DNA of 36,609 bases from Spirochaetaceae bacterium (GTDB taxonomy: Bacteria; Spirochaetota; Spirochaetia; WTKD01): positions 1-36,609 of the forward strand of contig WTKD01000008.1 of assembly GCA_011524535.1 (NCBI GenBank), in the 5' to 3' direction. The notes below the pieces were generated by a model. It was not told where the DNA came from. It made no database searches and saw only the letters and a program-made list of their open reading frames with translations. This document shows, in pieces, positions 14,375-21,919 of this stretch (the first letter of the stretch is position 1; each line of letters opens with the position of its first letter). The position numbers and the translations under genes were made by a program.

Positions 14375-14726
14375 CGTGTCCCTAGTCAATGCATGTTTTT
14401 GCTAGAAATTAGAAGACAGTGAAGAAAAGGCTATATTTCTTTTTCATCATTTCTAACAAAAAATCGATTCCAACTCTCTTTAGATGAAGAACCAATGTGC
14501 TAGATTCTCCACCTGTCTGTAAATTGTATGTTTCTGCTGTCTATTCCTGCTGTCTAACTCCTCTTCATTTTTAGTACAATGTATTTTCGAAAAGATCGGT
14601 GTTTTTTCTAATATAGTGTATTGCCTAAAAAACACGAGCACCCTCTTTGAATAGCTGCTACCAAGCGTATTATTTGATAGCATAAAGCTTAGAATCTGGG
14701 CTTTTAATCAGCAAGGAAGTACAGTT
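14375..14726 (+). other. Non-coding stretch between the ribosomal operon and rnhA
   Basis: I see no gene and no tRNA here. Three small structures are visible. A direct repeat CTGCTGTCTA occurs at 14534-14543 and 14547-14556. A 9-bp inverted repeat of GTGTTTTTT (14599-14607) and AAAAAACAC (14627-14635) has a 19-nt loop; it is AT-rich and not a convincing terminator. A weak promoter-like pair is TTTGAA (14646-14651), a 16-bp spacer, and TATTAT (14668-14673), which could drive rnhA. Confidence 0.4.
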
Positions 14727-16812: not shown

Positions 16813-18069
16813 ATGGAAACATCACTCTGTTTGGATGTAGGAAGCACATCAATAAAGGGTGCTGTGATAAACCCTTCGCATAATATATATATGACTCATA
16901 AGCACGTTCTTTCGATTGAACCCTCGATAGAGGAGTTATCGAATGCCTTTTTGGAAGTCATAAAACAACTGAGCGATATGTACAGAGGCGGGGATATCAC
17001 GAGCATAATTGTGTGTGGAAATGGGCCAAGTTTGGTCATAAATCCAGAATTAGATTCACGATACTGCGTGTATTGGTACAAGGAGGCGAGAGAAAGACAA
17101 GAGTCTCTATCGTTCTACCTTCCCTTATTGTCACAAATGAATACAGTCGAAAAGAAGGCTCTCCGTGCAGCACTCCCCTTACCGGAATATTTGTGCACAG
17201 TGTTGGGGGGCGCTCAAAAAACGATACTGCCAGTAGATTCCTATGGAGATTTTATATTATCAAAAGAAGACTGTGCGAACCATCAATTACCGCAAGAACA
17301 TTTACTTGATTATCATCCTATACATGACCAGCTTGGACTAAGTAATCAGAAAAGTATGCAAATACTGAAAGTGGCAGAAACAATTCCATTGTTTTGTGGA
17401 GGAACCGATTATCTCATGGACATACTTGGGATAGATGAGCTTAATGTTTTTGATCTGGTCATACGTGTTGGGACAAGGGTTGTGTGCAATTGTATTATTG
17501 ATGCTCCATCGGTGAAATATTTCGATGACTGTGTCGTTCTTCCATATTTAGTCGATAAAACTTACACAGCCGCCATTTTTTATTCGGATGAATCCAAGAA
17601 ATTAAGGAATGCAGTGCAGGATATTATTAACGAAAAAGAAAATGCTTCCCTTTTGACATATTTTGAAGAGTTGGCTAATGCATTTGATTATGACACGGTG
17701 CTTGATTTATGTGCCTTGGGGTTAATGTTTCGGTATCGCTTGAACACTATAGAAACTAGAAGCGCTAGAAAATTTGGAACGGTTCATCTTTCGGGTGAAT
17801 TCAAATTTTTTGATGTATTCGCTGAGTTATTTTCAATGTGTCTGGGACGACAAGTGACATATGCGGGCACTTCAATGACATCCTTGATGGGTTGCTATAG
17901 ACTTTCTGCTCACAAAGAGAGCATACATTCTCGGCTACCATGGAGTCCACTGTTTCCAGGAAAACAGCGAATACGAGTAACACCCGATCAGAACGAGTAT
18001 AACCCATATATAAATGAAATATATACTGATTTTTCTCAGCGGGTGCTCCGGAGCGAACAAATGGATTAA
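16813..18069 (+). CDS. Divergent FGGY/ASKHA-fold carbohydrate-kinase-like protein
   Basis: The 418-residue product opens with LCLDVGSTSIKGAVI (residues 5-19), the phosphate-1 motif of sugar kinases and other actin-like ATPases. Later segments with the feel of this fold are GNGPSLVI, a VGTRVV stretch (near residue 225) and VHLSGEFKFFDVFAELF with VTYAGTSMTSLMGCY at the end, in the place of the adenosine-binding motif. It is shorter than typical FGGY kinases (about 480-520), and I cannot find a convincing catalytic aspartate region, so substrate and activity are unknown. It sits 3 bp after comM and ends 3 bp from the convergent regulator gene, leaving no room for separate terminators. Confidence 0.6.
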   Translation: METSLCLDVGSTSIKGAVINPSHNIYMTHKHVLSIEPSIEELSNAFLEVIKQLSDMYRGGDITSIIVCGNGPSLVINPELDSRYCVYWYKEARERQESLSFYLPLLSQMNTVEKKALRAALPLPEYLCTVLGGAQKTILPVDSYGDFILSKEDCANHQLPQEHLLDYHPIHDQLGLSNQKSMQILKVAETIPLFCGGTDYLMDILGIDELNVFDLVIRVGTRVVCNCIIDAPSVKYFDDCVVLPYLVDKTYTAAIFYSDESKKLRNAVQDIINEKENASLLTYFEELANAFDYDTVLDLCALGLMFRYRLNTIETRSARKFGTVHLSGEFKFFDVFAELFSMCLGRQVTYAGTSMTSLMGCYRLSAHKESIHSRLPWSPLFPGKQRIRVTPDQNEYNPYINEIYTDFSQRVLRSEQMD

Positions 18070-18072
18070 GGA

Positions 18073-19569
18073 TTATTTTGTTTTGAATTGCTTTGTATCA
18101 ATCGAGTGTTTTGCAATTCTTAATCGTAATATTCTATGACTGATTTTCAATAATTTTGCGGTTGTGCTTATCGAACCACGAGATATTTTCAAGGCATCTT
18201 GTATGATACTTGCTTCATAGGTGTCCATAAGTTCCTGTAGAGACCCAGAAAAGGCCGTTTTAGTCGATTCTGCGCTCTGCAGTGTGGGAGGTAGATGATG
18301 GGGGTGTATGACGCCTTCTGTGTTCTTTAGACTTGCCAATTCCAGTGTATCGGATAATTCGCGAACATTTCCTGGCCAGTGATAATTTATCAAGAGGTCG
18401 ATGGCTGAACTGCTTATACGTTTTATTGGAATAAAATGTTTTTCGTACAAATTAGACACAAAGTGGTTTGCAAGCAGAGGTATATCACTTTTTCTGTTTC
18501 GCAATGGGGGTATCGGTATATGTATAGAGGAGAAATAGTCTTGTAGTGAGGGTAAAAGAGTTGAGGGACCCTGGTCTGACTCAGCATATACATCACTCGC
18601 AAAAATTCTTGTATTTATTTGATGGCATTCATTTGTAACGGGATTTACTAGAGTCCCAGATCGAAAAAAGTTAAACAGTTTTTCTTGGATTATCGGGGAC
18701 ATCGAAGATATTTCATCGATATATAGGGTTCCGAGATGGGCATTTTTTAATAAACCGGCAGTGTCTGCGGAGCCAAATAAACGTTCTTCTAGGTTGTTTT
18801 CTAGTGTTTTTTGGGCGGGGACATAGATAAACGCATGATCGGACCTATCACTGTTGTGGTGGATGATATGCGCGAGATAGTTTTTTCCCGTACCCGATTC
18901 CCCAGTTAGATATACTGGTGAGTCGCTCCTGCAGGAAAAAGCTATTTTTTCAAATACAGAACTCATGGAAGCAGCGTTTCCAATAAAATTGGAGATTTTG
19001 TGTTTGTCTGATATTTCGGCTCGGAGTCTCTTGTTTTCTTGAAGCAATTGTTCTCGATCTTCGGTGATGCGTTGTCGCAACCTGATTGCCTGGGTTACGA
19101 GAGAAGAAATGACCGAAAGCAGGCGTAGATGTTGCTCGAGTGTTTCTTTATTGTTTTGATACTCGTCTATGGCAATTGCGCCTATTGGATCGCCTTCTAT
19201 TTTTATGGGAGCACATATAAATGCGAGATTTTCTTCCATTTGCAAGCGTGATTTTGTTTTATTCAAGAATGCTGGTTCATGCGCAACTGAAGGGATGAGG
19301 CGAGAAATACCCGTTGAAATGACAGTGCCGATAATTCCTTCACCCAGATTATAGCGGGTTCTTGTTTTTTCGAGATCGGTCAGTCCGTAGGCTTCTTCTA
19401 TTTGAATATCATTTTTTGATTTATTAAGTATGGTGATCATACCGCGAGGGCTATCGAAATATTCACAGACCGTCTGTAGAACAGGATATATAACGAGTTG
19501 TATGTCCGGATTTCTATCTAGAATTTGACTGATTGAAAATAGAAGTTCTAGTTCGTGGTCGTTTTTCAT
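18073..19569 (-). CDS. GAF-AAA+-Fis regulator of the NtrC/NifA type, lacking the GAFTGA loop
   Basis: The 498-residue product has a GAF-like sensor domain (about 1-165), a short coiled linker, an AAA+ domain (about 190-430) and a Fis-type helix-turn-helix (about 445-491). Walker A is GESGTGKN (223-230) and Walker B is TLYIDE (281-286); WPGNVREL (398-405) is the usual sensor region. Between LFG (264-266) and GTLYIDE only 13 residues remain, about ten fewer than normal, and GAFTGA is gone. The arginine-finger region that normally reads FRxDLYYRL is LQDYFSSI. A normal sigma-54 activator needs both. The protein may act without sigma-54, as TyrR does, or be a degenerate activator. Its ATG lies 2 bp after the pyk stop, so the two are probably co-transcribed and translationally coupled. 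Confidence 0.85.
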   Translation of the reverse strand: MKNDHELELLFSISQILDRNPDIQLVIYPVLQTVCEYFDSPRGMITILNKSKNDIQIEEAYGLTDLEKTRTRYNLGEGIIGTVISTGISRLIPSVAHEPAFLNKTKSRLQMEENLAFICAPIKIEGDPIGAIAIDEYQNNKETLEQHLRLLSVISSLVTQAIRLRQRITEDREQLLQENKRLRAEISDKHKISNFIGNAASMSSVFEKIAFSCRSDSPVYLTGESGTGKNYLAHIIHHNSDRSDHAFIYVPAQKTLENNLEERLFGSADTAGLLKNAHLGTLYIDEISSMSPIIQEKLFNFFRSGTLVNPVTNECHQINTRIFASDVYAESDQGPSTLLPSLQDYFSSIHIPIPPLRNRKSDIPLLANHFVSNLYEKHFIPIKRISSSAIDLLINYHWPGNVRELSDTLELASLKNTEGVIHPHHLPPTLQSAESTKTAFSGSLQELMDTYEASIIQDALKISRGSISTTAKLLKISHRILRLRIAKHSIDTKQFKTK

Positions 19570-19571
19570 GC

Positions 19572-21341
19572 TTATGACTCAATTTCATATATTATCATCT
19601 CTCCCCCCGATAATCCGATTGGCTTTCCTTCTTCCAGATTTGCTACTTTTGTGTGAATACCGGCTACAACTACTAGCTGTGGATTGTGGTACACCAAATC
19701 ATCAAGAACTTGGAGATATGAATTACAAACTATTCCTTTCACGTGCCTCAACAATGAAAAATCTTCTGTGTTGAGGTCCTCACATACAAGGATGAGATTC
19801 TGTTTCAGTTGCATGTCCTGCCGAGCTTTTTGTATGTCTTTCATATGATATACAATACCTTCTGCAAAGGTTCCATACCCTTGGAATCCACGTTGCAGTA
19901 TTTTTCCGACGAAACGTATCATGATGGTGTTGAGCATAGTAGCGCTTGTTAGGGGCAACCCAGCTGCAACGGTGACAAAATCTCTGCTTCTTACTATATT
20001 TTCTTTCATCGCTATTGCGATGGTATTATCGATTATTTCTTCAATGTCGGGAGAGTCTTTCTTAGGGAGAAGGACAGGGTAGACGCCCGAATATATGAGC
20101 AAGCTCTTATAGACTTGTTCATTCGATGTAGGTGCTATGATTGGCTGAGAAGGGCGAAACATGGAAAGAATATGTGGGCTATTGCCACGTAAAGTTGGGG
20201 CAATGATGGCACTGGATTTGGTGTCTGATGCGGTAATACAGGTTGATTTTGTTACTGCCGATCGAACATCTTTCACCTGTTCATGCAATGAAAACAGCTG
20301 TTTGCAATGTTCCCGGTACATTTTCGATGATTCTATTTTAGAAGCAATATTATGCATCGTTTTGACCGCCTGCACGGGATATTTTCCGTTTGCTGTTTCT
20401 GCTGACAGCATAATTGCATCGGTCCCATCAAGGATTGCATTGGCTACATCGGTTGCCTCTGCACGCGTTGGTCTAGGATTTACAATCATAGATTCAAGCA
20501 TCTGTGTTGCTGTTATGACCGCTTTACCGTATTGGTTGCAGATACGAATGATTGTTTTTTGCGCCATCGGAACATCCTCTGGCTTTAGTTGAACTCCCAG
20601 GTCACCTCGTGCGACCATAGCTCCACTGGAAGCAAGTACTATTGAGTGAATATTATCCAAGGCTTCTTTGGTTTCGATCTTGGCTATTATCTTCATAGCA
20701 GCCTTATGCCCTTCAAGCTGGGCTTTGATCGATAAGATGTCCTCCACCGTTTGAACAAATGAAGCTGCGAGGAAATCCATATTCATCGATGCCCCAAAGG
20801 CTATATCTTCTATGTCTGCTTCCGTTAATATCGGTAGAGAAACCTTTGTGCCAATGACGTTTACATTCTTGTTTGAGCCAAAAGAACCGCCTGTAATGAC
20901 TTTACAGAAAATTTGAGCGTCTCTTATCTCTTGTACTTCTAGTTCAATTAATCCATCAGCAATGAGTATTTTTACGCCCTTGCTTACGTCCTTTGACAAA
21001 AGAGTATGATTTACAGAAAGAAGGCTGGGGGTACACAGGCTTTCTTTATCACCGGTAACGATGATATCCGAACCTTCTTCCAAGGTTATTTTTTCTCCAT
21101 CGATTGTTTTACCGGTACGTATTTGTGGACCTTTTGTGTCGAGGAGGGTAGCGACTGGTATGCCTGTTTCTTTACTCGCAGTCAATACCGTGTGTATACG
21201 CTCTTTATGTTCTTCATGTGAACCATGGCTAAAATTGAAACGAGCTATTGTCATGCCTGATTCCAATAGTTGTTTAACTAGGTCAAGGCTATCGCAAGTT
21301 GGTCCAATTGTACAAACGATTTTTGTTTTTCTCTTGTTCAT
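19572..21341 (-). CDS. pyk: Pyruvate kinase with a C-terminal extra domain
   Basis: Pyruvate kinase makes pyruvate and ATP from phosphoenolpyruvate and ADP, the last step of glycolysis. The 589-residue product has RFNFSHG (34-40), LDTKGPQIRTG (67-77), the catalytic lysine in IIAKIE (Lys221), VARGDLGV (243-250) and the TATQMLESMI and PTRAEATDVANAILDGTDAIMLSAE blocks. All look functional. After about residue 480 comes an extra domain of about 110 residues, in the place of the PEP-utiliser-like domain of Bacillus-type enzymes. It ends GLSGGEMIIYE but lacks the usual TSHAA motif. The regulator gene follows after 2 bp. A palindrome and a TATAAT box lie just upstream. Confidence 0.95.
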   Translation of the reverse strand: MNKRKTKIVCTIGPTCDSLDLVKQLLESGMTIARFNFSHGSHEEHKERIHTVLTASKETGIPVATLLDTKGPQIRTGKTIDGEKITLEEGSDIIVTGDKESLCTPSLLSVNHTLLSKDVSKGVKILIADGLIELEVQEIRDAQIFCKVITGGSFGSNKNVNVIGTKVSLPILTEADIEDIAFGASMNMDFLAASFVQTVEDILSIKAQLEGHKAAMKIIAKIETKEALDNIHSIVLASSGAMVARGDLGVQLKPEDVPMAQKTIIRICNQYGKAVITATQMLESMIVNPRPTRAEATDVANAILDGTDAIMLSAETANGKYPVQAVKTMHNIASKIESSKMYREHCKQLFSLHEQVKDVRSAVTKSTCITASDTKSSAIIAPTLRGNSPHILSMFRPSQPIIAPTSNEQVYKSLLIYSGVYPVLLPKKDSPDIEEIIDNTIAIAMKENIVRSRDFVTVAAGLPLTSATMLNTIMIRFVGKILQRGFQGYGTFAEGIVYHMKDIQKARQDMQLKQNLILVCEDLNTEDFSLLRHVKGIVCNSYLQVLDDLVYHNPQLVVVAGIHTKVANLEEGKPIGLSGGEMIIYEIES

Positions 21342-21423: not shown

Positions 21424-21879
21424 TTATTCTTCGGTAAAATCTTTAATCAGCATTTCGAGCTCGGATTCACTTGCACCAAATTGGGAATGTTCCTTATTTC
21501 GCCCCTCGCTCTTGAGTTGTTCAAGGTAGTTTTTTGTTTTTATCTGTTGGCTAAGAATTTTCTTTGCTGCCTTTCCAAGGCTAGAATTTGATATACCTTT
21601 ATCAGTGGAAGTTTGTTTTTCGATCAGAATGTGCAGGAGTTGTACGAAGCGGTCTACAACATGATGCAATAGGAGTACATAGGAAGAGCGTTCAACAAAA
21701 AAACTATTTGAGGAAATAAATGTATTCAAGCGTTCTACCACTACATCTATGAAAGTGATGTCTTCAAGGCATTTTTTAGCGATAGCCGAGTCTTCAAGAA
21801 GTTCCAATTTTTGAGCTCCTTGAACGATTTGAACATATTTGTATGCAATATACGCTTTATTTTTAAAGTGTTGTTCCAT
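21424..21879 (-). CDS. Uncharacterised helical protein
   Basis: I do not recognise this protein. From the ATG at 21879 (MEQHFKNKAYIAYKYVQ) it has 151 residues. An upstream in-frame ATG at 21906 would add nine residues (MCELSTKIS), but that start lies inside the TTGACA-17-TATCAT promoter of the divergent rpsF operon, and neither start has a strong ribosome-binding site. The sequence is predicted helical by its pattern, with no signal peptide, no membrane segment, and a charged, flexible end rich in Ser, Glu and Lys (LKSEGRNKEHSQFGASESELEML). It lies upstream of pyk on the same strand with an 82-bp gap, so it may or may not share its transcript. Confidence 0.7.
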   Translation of the reverse strand: MEQHFKNKAYIAYKYVQIVQGAQKLELLEDSAIAKKCLEDITFIDVVVERLNTFISSNSFFVERSSYVLLLHHVVDRFVQLLHILIEKQTSTDKGISNSSLGKAAKKILSQQIKTKNYLEQLKSEGRNKEHSQFGASESELEMLIKDFTEE

Positions 21880-21890
21880 GCTTATCTTTG

Positions 21891-21919
21891 TTGACAGTTC
21901 GCACATTCAATACTATCAT
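21891..21919 (+). promoter_or_regulatory. Sigma-70-type promoter of the rpsF-ssb-rpsR operon
   Basis: A consensus TTGACA (21891-21896) is followed by exactly 17 bp and TATCAT (21914-21919), 5 of 6 matches to TATAAT. Transcription would begin near 21926, about 18 nt before the rpsF ATG. The element is the best promoter match I found in the window. It overlaps the possible extended 5' end of the divergent gene, which argues for that gene's shorter start. Confidence 0.65.

Follow-up and report, generated by a model that had tools for sequence, protein, structure and literature searches.

A regulator that carries all the domains of an NtrC/NifA-type activator and has lost the loop with which such proteins contact sigma-54 raises the question of what it still does, and whether it is a working protein, a sequencing error or a gene in decay. 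Such a regulator is encoded in the stretch of DNA analysed here, hereafter the window, which comprises the 36,609 nucleotides of contig WTKD01000008.1 of the Spirochaetaceae bacterium assembly GCA_011524535.1. Its gene is an ORF of 498 amino acids on the minus strand (19569-18073) with an ATG start. An earlier note, made from the letters of this DNA alone, had proposed a sigma-54-independent regulator, perhaps of glycolysis, since its start codon closely follows the stop of the pyruvate kinase gene, pyk. The first half of this proposal is strengthened by the evidence collected below, whereas the second half is not.

The ORF, its Pfam matches, its orthologs and the tree all identify the product as a GAF-AAA+-Fis regulator (18073..19569, minus strand, as are all the features of the protein given here). 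The GAF domain occupies residues 5-165 (19075..19557), with a Pfam match of 45 bits over residues 22-162; the central part matches Sigma54_activat with 81 bits over profile positions 2-140 of 168; the lid matches AAA_lid_14 with 85 bits; and the Fis-type helix-turn-helix (HTH; 18109..18216) matches HTH_8 with 22.4 bits, just above the cut-off of 22. Within the AAA+ core (residues 194-355; 18505..18990) the alignment shows Walker A (GESGTGK, residues 223-229; 18883..18903) and Walker B (GTLYIDE, residues 280-286; 18712..18732) intact, as expected of a sigma-54-dependent bEBP, and in this respect Pfam and the alignment agree with the earlier note, which had listed the three domains and both Walker motifs. 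Two other hallmarks of a sigma-54-dependent bEBP are absent. GAFTGA was not found in the window protein when it was aligned with its orthologs: exactly 13 residues (267-279), as the note had counted, separate LFG (264-266) from GTLYIDE, compared with 22 in the consensus of the relatives, and nine alignment columns occupied in nearly all orthologs are deleted at a single point (18756..18757), with the loss of FTGA and the remainder of loop L1. The arginine-finger segment (18535..18558), which had also been described as missing, reads LLPSLQDY in place of the consensus FREDLYYR (LLPSLQDYFSS over the longer FREDLYYRLNV), both arginines being replaced (R->L339 and R->Y345). Three further changes had escaped the note: the Sensor I region (18592..18600) has turned from ATN to ASD (T->S325, N->D326), one more residue is deleted beside it, and the usual E of GTGKE, after Walker A, is N. 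For these segments we use the customary names of L1, Sensor I and arginine finger.

The family to which this protein belongs is common in Spirochaetia. Matches at E <=1e-60 were found in 154 of 394 genomes of the class, the window genome included, and 120 proteins were fetched for motif counts. G-x-FT-x-A is present in 118 of them, as GAFTGA (94), GAFTSA (12), GSFTGA (10) or GAFTNA (2); of the remaining two, one meets a contig end (L142) and the other reads GAVPGA (L163). The latter keeps its arginine fingers and may be an evolutionary intermediate or reflect an assembly error. The finger segment is kept in 119 of the 120, once as the variant FREDIYYR (L212), the exception being L142, cut at its contig edge. 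No fetched relative has the form of the regulator found in the window. On the NCBIfam model for NifA, TIGR01817 (cut-off 528.85), relatives L113 and L105 score 555.4 and 563.3 bits, and the window protein, with 250.9 bits, falls below. These NifA or NifA-like relatives share with it the GAF-AAA+-Fis order, orthology, the HTH and the neighbouring genes; the window protein differs from them in having no GAFTGA, no fingers and no Sensor I residues, and in that amtB-glnK do not follow it downstream. Its place in the Spirochaetia NifA-like ortholog group is given by the non-core tree and by a gene order like that of L113, and, judged from these comparisons, it is a derived ortholog of the NifA-like sigma-54 activator common in the class.

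The divergence of the window protein is concentrated in the AAA core. Mean identities, calculated for the window protein against 116 orthologs and, among orthologs, from a sample of 2500 pairs, are 34.1% versus 78.3% in the core, compared with 42.5% versus 54.9% in the GAF domain, 58.1% versus 74.2% in the lid and 39.6% versus 61.0% in the HTH. Near-invariant positions have been changed at 42 of 74 sites in the core, while 26 of 31 are kept in the lid, 15 of 17 in the GAF domain and 10 of 13 in the HTH region (residues 441-496), where the altered ones are N->S466, E->H478 and G->R482. Trees of 117 class orthologs and six outgroup sequences were built separately for the core and for the rest of the protein. 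The non-core tree joins the window protein to the 117 orthologs as their sister, none of the six outgroups falling inside (support 0.84), and there its root-to-tip distance of 0.88 is ordinary (others: mean 0.78, maximum 1.14); for the core this distance is 3.26 (others: mean 0.43, maximum 0.61). The core-only tree sets it beside an outgroup sequence (L124par, support 0.59), a misplacement expected from so long a branch.

A sequencing error or a recent frameshift was considered as the source of this state and rejected: a slip is unlikely because the deletions are in frame and because the changes crowd into the core while the lid and the GAF domain are largely kept. According to the earlier note, close relatives with an intact loop would have told against its reading; the loop is indeed intact in relatives, at the level of the class, and the evidence of alignment and tree points to a derived, lineage-specific state of the protein rather than to an error. 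This state is known from one genome, and the relatives compared belong to the same class.

A different objection is that the gene is no longer functional, in a genome as small as 1.42 Mb, so that the eroded AAA core would be a symptom of decay and the protein would do little. Against this, all 498 codons read through without a stop and every deletion is in frame, and in a simulation of neutral drift to 37.7% identity the core stayed free of stops in just 10 of 3000 runs (0.33%). Moreover, the GAF domain, lid and HTH, taken together, show a normal rate of evolution, and this is not what decay would produce. A normal rate outside the core together with a stop-free core means that the core has changed greatly under constraint on the frame and on the sensor, lid and DNA-binding parts. 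We consider decay unlikely, and two further points that bear on it come from the DNA sites and the gene neighbourhood discussed below. An AlphaFold2 model (mean pLDDT 87) predicts an AAA+ fold similar to those of FleQ (5exp, rmsd 2.0 over 246 columns) and NtrC1, also matching VpsR (7v2b); its input alignment comprised 30 relatives, of which nearly all have the loop, and this may pull the predicted fold towards theirs.

The genome itself (14 contigs, 96% complete) retains the sigma-54 system. The note had suggested looking for rpoN in the same genome; it is there, encoding 476 amino acids, and its loss is rejected as the cause of the loop loss. Two other bEBPs, one of them with a receiver domain, carry GAFTGA or GAFTNA and intact fingers. 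Their presence, together with the AAA+ fold predicted for the window protein, would be compatible with a modulator that joins their rings, or competes with them, and thereby damps sigma-54 transcription; in neither of the two does Pfam recognise a GAF domain, and we attach very little probability to this alternative. Genome-wide there are five near-consensus matches to a sigma-54 promoter, three of them inside genes, and the control yields two. Sigma-54 matches are seen 37 bp before an ORF that we read as Hsp20-type (L241:1501-1516, contig C11) and just before one that we read as of the sigma-70 family (L240:1501-1516, contig C9); the two together are reminiscent of the RpoN-RpoS cascade of Borrelia.

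What the canonical members of the family control can be read from their neighbours. We compared 40 neighbourhoods, three of which have no regulator gene call and several of which lie on short contigs. Clusters found near the regulator, identified by the Pfam names of their representatives, include an ammonium transporter (16 neighbourhoods), a P-II protein (15) and a type III glutamine synthetase (13). All but one of the 16 transporter genes lie downstream of the regulator, either next to it or one gene call further on. Upstream of amtB, 23 of 27 relatives carry the dyad TAC-N6-GTA, compared with 2.3 in shuffles, and this dyad resolves to CTACA-N4-TGTAG, often in two or three copies at steps of about 29-30 bp. 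A PWM was trained on 55 such sites from 26 of the 27 relatives with the motif (median score 12.8), so that its independent tests are the held-out relatives and the window genome only; among the 27, L169 has no good site upstream of amtB. At the same promoters, a sigma-54 promoter score of at least 9 of 11 is attained in 25 of 27 relatives, a level reached by about 3% of shuffled 420-bp stretches. In 24 of them the match stands at a consistent place, -182 to -214 from the AmtB protein motif, from which positions were measured so as to avoid start-codon errors; the match of L125, at -94, falls inside the coding region and was left out of the 24. The score is a plain count, and five of the 24 best matches have no exact GG or GC.

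Nine relatives that the AmtB motif had not matched (L110, L127-L130, L132, L134, L135 and L140) served as the held-out set. Seven of them carry sites scoring 14.9 to 18.1, mostly in tandem, no good family site being found in L129 and L132, and seven reach a sigma-54 score of 9, with L127 and L128 at 8. These sequences have the layout of a system in which amtB-glnK is activated through sigma-54 from an enhancer. CTACA-N4-TGTAG is likely the upstream activating sequence at which the NifA-like regulators of Spirochaetia act, and in the relatives it would be bound by the neighbouring regulator, which most likely switches on amtB-glnK from these upstream sites through sigma-54 polymerase.

In the window genome amtB and glnK lie apart from the regulator, on another contig (L170). 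They are ordinary orthologs of the relatives' genes (55-61% and 64-72% identical, respectively), and their loss, which might have been the cause of the change in the regulator, is rejected, both genes being present. At amtB no sigma-54 element was found, the best score being 7 of 11 and falling inside the coding region; if amtB is the target, as we suppose, the target promoter has lost its sigma-54 element, as is the case for other GAFTGA-less bEBPs. One strong family site is kept, GTACAAATACGTAG, at -26 to -13 from the amtB ATG, corresponding to L170:15729-15742. Its PWM score of 14.8 was equalled in one of 2000 Markov sequences. Across the whole genome there are seven distinct matches to STACANNNNYGTAS, among which the amtB-promoter site scores highest, narrowly; the next (14.6) and four more lie inside ORFs, and a weak intergenic one scores 8.2. 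The pattern shows no enrichment across the genome (10 strand hits, compared with 18 for the reversed control), and for this reason we do not claim a wide regulon. PWM matches of at least 11 elsewhere in 110 kb of the genome, namely 13.8 inside another bEBP gene (L172:8398) and, in the window, 12.5 at 586, 11.8 at 21115 and 11.3 at 14719, are treated as chance. The region upstream of glnA has a best PWM score of only 7.7. Divergent from amtB are genes for a family-3 solute-binding protein and for what we read as an amino-acid ABC permease (L170:16135-17789, plus strand), and the 418-bp region that they share with amtB has an operator-like site at the amtB end only.

Read from the sequence, the amtB site overlaps TACAAA, which stands 16 bases after TTGACA, and adjoins the ribosome-binding site, a position that makes repression likelier than activation. 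The putative -35/-10 pair is weak and would imply a leader of about 13 bases; neither a promoter scan nor a sigma-70 pattern at amtB listed TTGACA-N16-TACAAA, the scan giving one site, on the other strand, and the pattern none. Furthermore, the site is single: 29 bp further upstream the PWM gives only -0.3, compared with the two or three copies often seen in relatives. The single site, the weak -35/-10, the three HTH changes and the limitation to one genome are counterpoints to reading amtB as a present target, and a deletion that removed the sigma-54 promoter could have left the site near the gene as a relic. A relic is also what decay of the regulator would leave, and an amtB promoter with no sigma-54 element needing any activator would fit it; on the other side, the best site found in the genome sits at the ancestral target.

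The coupling to pyk proposed in the earlier note fares less well. The distance was given correctly: pyk (19572..21341, minus strand; Pfam PK and PK_C) ends at 19572 and the regulator starts at 19569, with 2 bases between stop and ATG. This closeness, together with the PWM match of 11.8 that lies inside pyk at 21115, is what speaks for a regulator of pyk or glycolysis. The best PWM score upstream of pyk is -3.5, which is no good match to the family site, and STACRNNNNYGTAS has no match within the window. The pair itself, whose conservation the note had wished to see examined, does occur in two relatives, and it is rare: pyk stands beside the regulator in 2 of the 40 neighbourhoods, in tandem upstream in L113 and convergent in L104. 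In L113 the order is a 160-aa ORF, pyk, a canonical activator, amtB, glnK and a convergent FGGY-like ORF, and the window has this order minus amtB-glnK. As pyk (47% identical to that of the window) is paired there with a canonical GAFTGA protein, the adjacency is most likely older than the loss of the loop. We dropped a functional coupling of regulator and pyk, found together in only these two neighbourhoods, and regulation of pyk or glycolysis by the window protein appears to us highly improbable.

Of the inherited neighbours, the window pyk encodes 589 amino acids with about 110 residues past PK_C, similar to the 592 of L113. The 160-aa ORF (21424..21906, minus strand) has no Pfam match and a weakly matching counterpart in L113 (E 1.2e-5). 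The convergent FGGY-kinase-like ORF (16813..18069, plus strand) has no Pfam match either and is 23-25% identical to homologs at five loci, with 24% for that of L113; two homologs near the regulators of relatives are clear FGGY kinases by Pfam, and the window copy looks like an eroded or repurposed kinase. Its eroded look is one more point that decay of the locus would explain.

Loss of GAFTGA has precedents. Excerpts from PMC3162934 and PMC1173090 describe it, along with a move to sigma-70 promoters, for TyrR, HupR and DhaR, argue that VpsR and YplP are not sigma-54 dependent, and present TyrR as usually a repressor at sigma-70 promoters; the earlier note's statement that TyrR lacks GAFTGA and works with sigma-70 agrees with them. 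As far as these excerpts go, TyrR, HupR, DhaR and YplP are, like the window protein, descendants of sigma-54 activators with a damaged GAFTGA; the TyrR group responds to other signals and acts on other targets, and on the TyrR model the window protein scores 124.5 bits against a cut-off of 576. Caulobacter NtrC has an eight-residue deletion in L1, is reported to act at sigma-70 promoters and needs its Walker residues for ammonium use, in a bacterium that retains other bEBPs with GAFTGA, and the GAFTGA-less NtrC of R. capsulatus is likewise reported at sigma-70 promoters (PMC10274813, in part). These two NtrC proteins share with the window protein a deletion in L1 that includes GAFTGA and a role in nitrogen regulation, presumed for the latter; unlike it, they are two-component regulators with an aspartyl phosphorylation site where the window protein has a GAF domain. 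VpsR of Vibrio cholerae, reported in the same excerpts of PMC10274813 to act at sigma-70 promoters independently of ATP, has, like the window protein, a bEBP fold without GAFTGA (the predicted fold matches 7v2b), and differs from it in an aspartyl phosphorylation site and c-di-GMP binding, as opposed to a GAF domain and a kept Walker A. In all, the window protein has lost L1 and, as far as alignment and model tell, kept fold and HTH, as is typical of GAFTGA-less bEBPs, and by analogy its action at amtB would resemble that of TyrR or Caulobacter NtrC at sigma-70 promoters.

We regard it as rather probable that the window protein regulates amtB-glnK independently of sigma-54, probably as a repressor acting on a housekeeping promoter. 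The sigma-54 independence proposed in the earlier note is supported on both sides: the protein retains neither the contact loop nor the two finger arginines, and amtB has no -24/-12 element. With the same position of its site, the window protein could instead activate amtB-glnK with the housekeeping polymerase, as is reported for the GAFTGA-less NtrC of R. capsulatus with sigma-70, by ATP binding and not hydrolysis (PMC10274813, in part), and the kept Walker A and B would suit such a mode of action. The sole strong site, at -26 to -13, near or downstream of any promoter, is an argument against it, and we hold activation to be distinctly improbable.

The course of events can be pictured as follows. 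The ancestor was a NifA-like activator that most likely turned on amtB-glnK through CTACA-N4-TGTAG sites and sigma-54 polymerase. In the window lineage, as the sequences show, the protein has lost L1 with GAFTGA, the finger arginines and the usual Sensor I residues, and has kept the GAF domain, Walker A and B, the lid and the HTH; amtB-glnK is found away from the regulator, and the amtB promoter has no sigma-54 element and retains one strong site. The present regulator would still bind GTACAAATACGTAG, with nucleotide and a signal at the GAF domain perhaps gating the binding, and would control how the housekeeping polymerase transcribes amtB-glnK; it would not remodel that polymerase and would hydrolyse little or no ATP. 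The full form of this proposal, in which a sigma-54 activator became a regulator with a remodelled, probably non-hydrolysing core and its promoter was converted too, the enhancer site becoming a promoter-proximal operator, is tentative, and we would put its chances slightly below even. If true, it would be a matched change in protein and DNA that turned an enhancer-binding activator into a repressor.

GAFTGA-less bEBPs are already known, TyrR, VpsR and Caulobacter NtrC among them, and the window protein is a more eroded variant. New are the NifA-like GAF subfamily and the spirochaete lineage in which this is seen, as well as the loss of fingers and Sensor I residues, a core that has evolved very fast, and a former target promoter that has changed to match. 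For control of amtB or glnK by NifA in spirochaetes, no such case was found among the matches listed for the open-access literature, and a survey of sigma-54 regulons reports, in excerpt, just a weak enrichment of nitrogen fixation in Spirochaetia (PMC12316311). The comparison gives a clear site consensus, CTACA-N4-TGTAG, for the NifA-like nitrogen regulators of this class, with which seven of the nine held-out relatives agree. If the reading of the window protein is true, it would be an enhancer-binding activator that is leaving the sigma-54 system while sigma-54 itself stays in the genome, with both the protein side and the promoter side of the change still readable.
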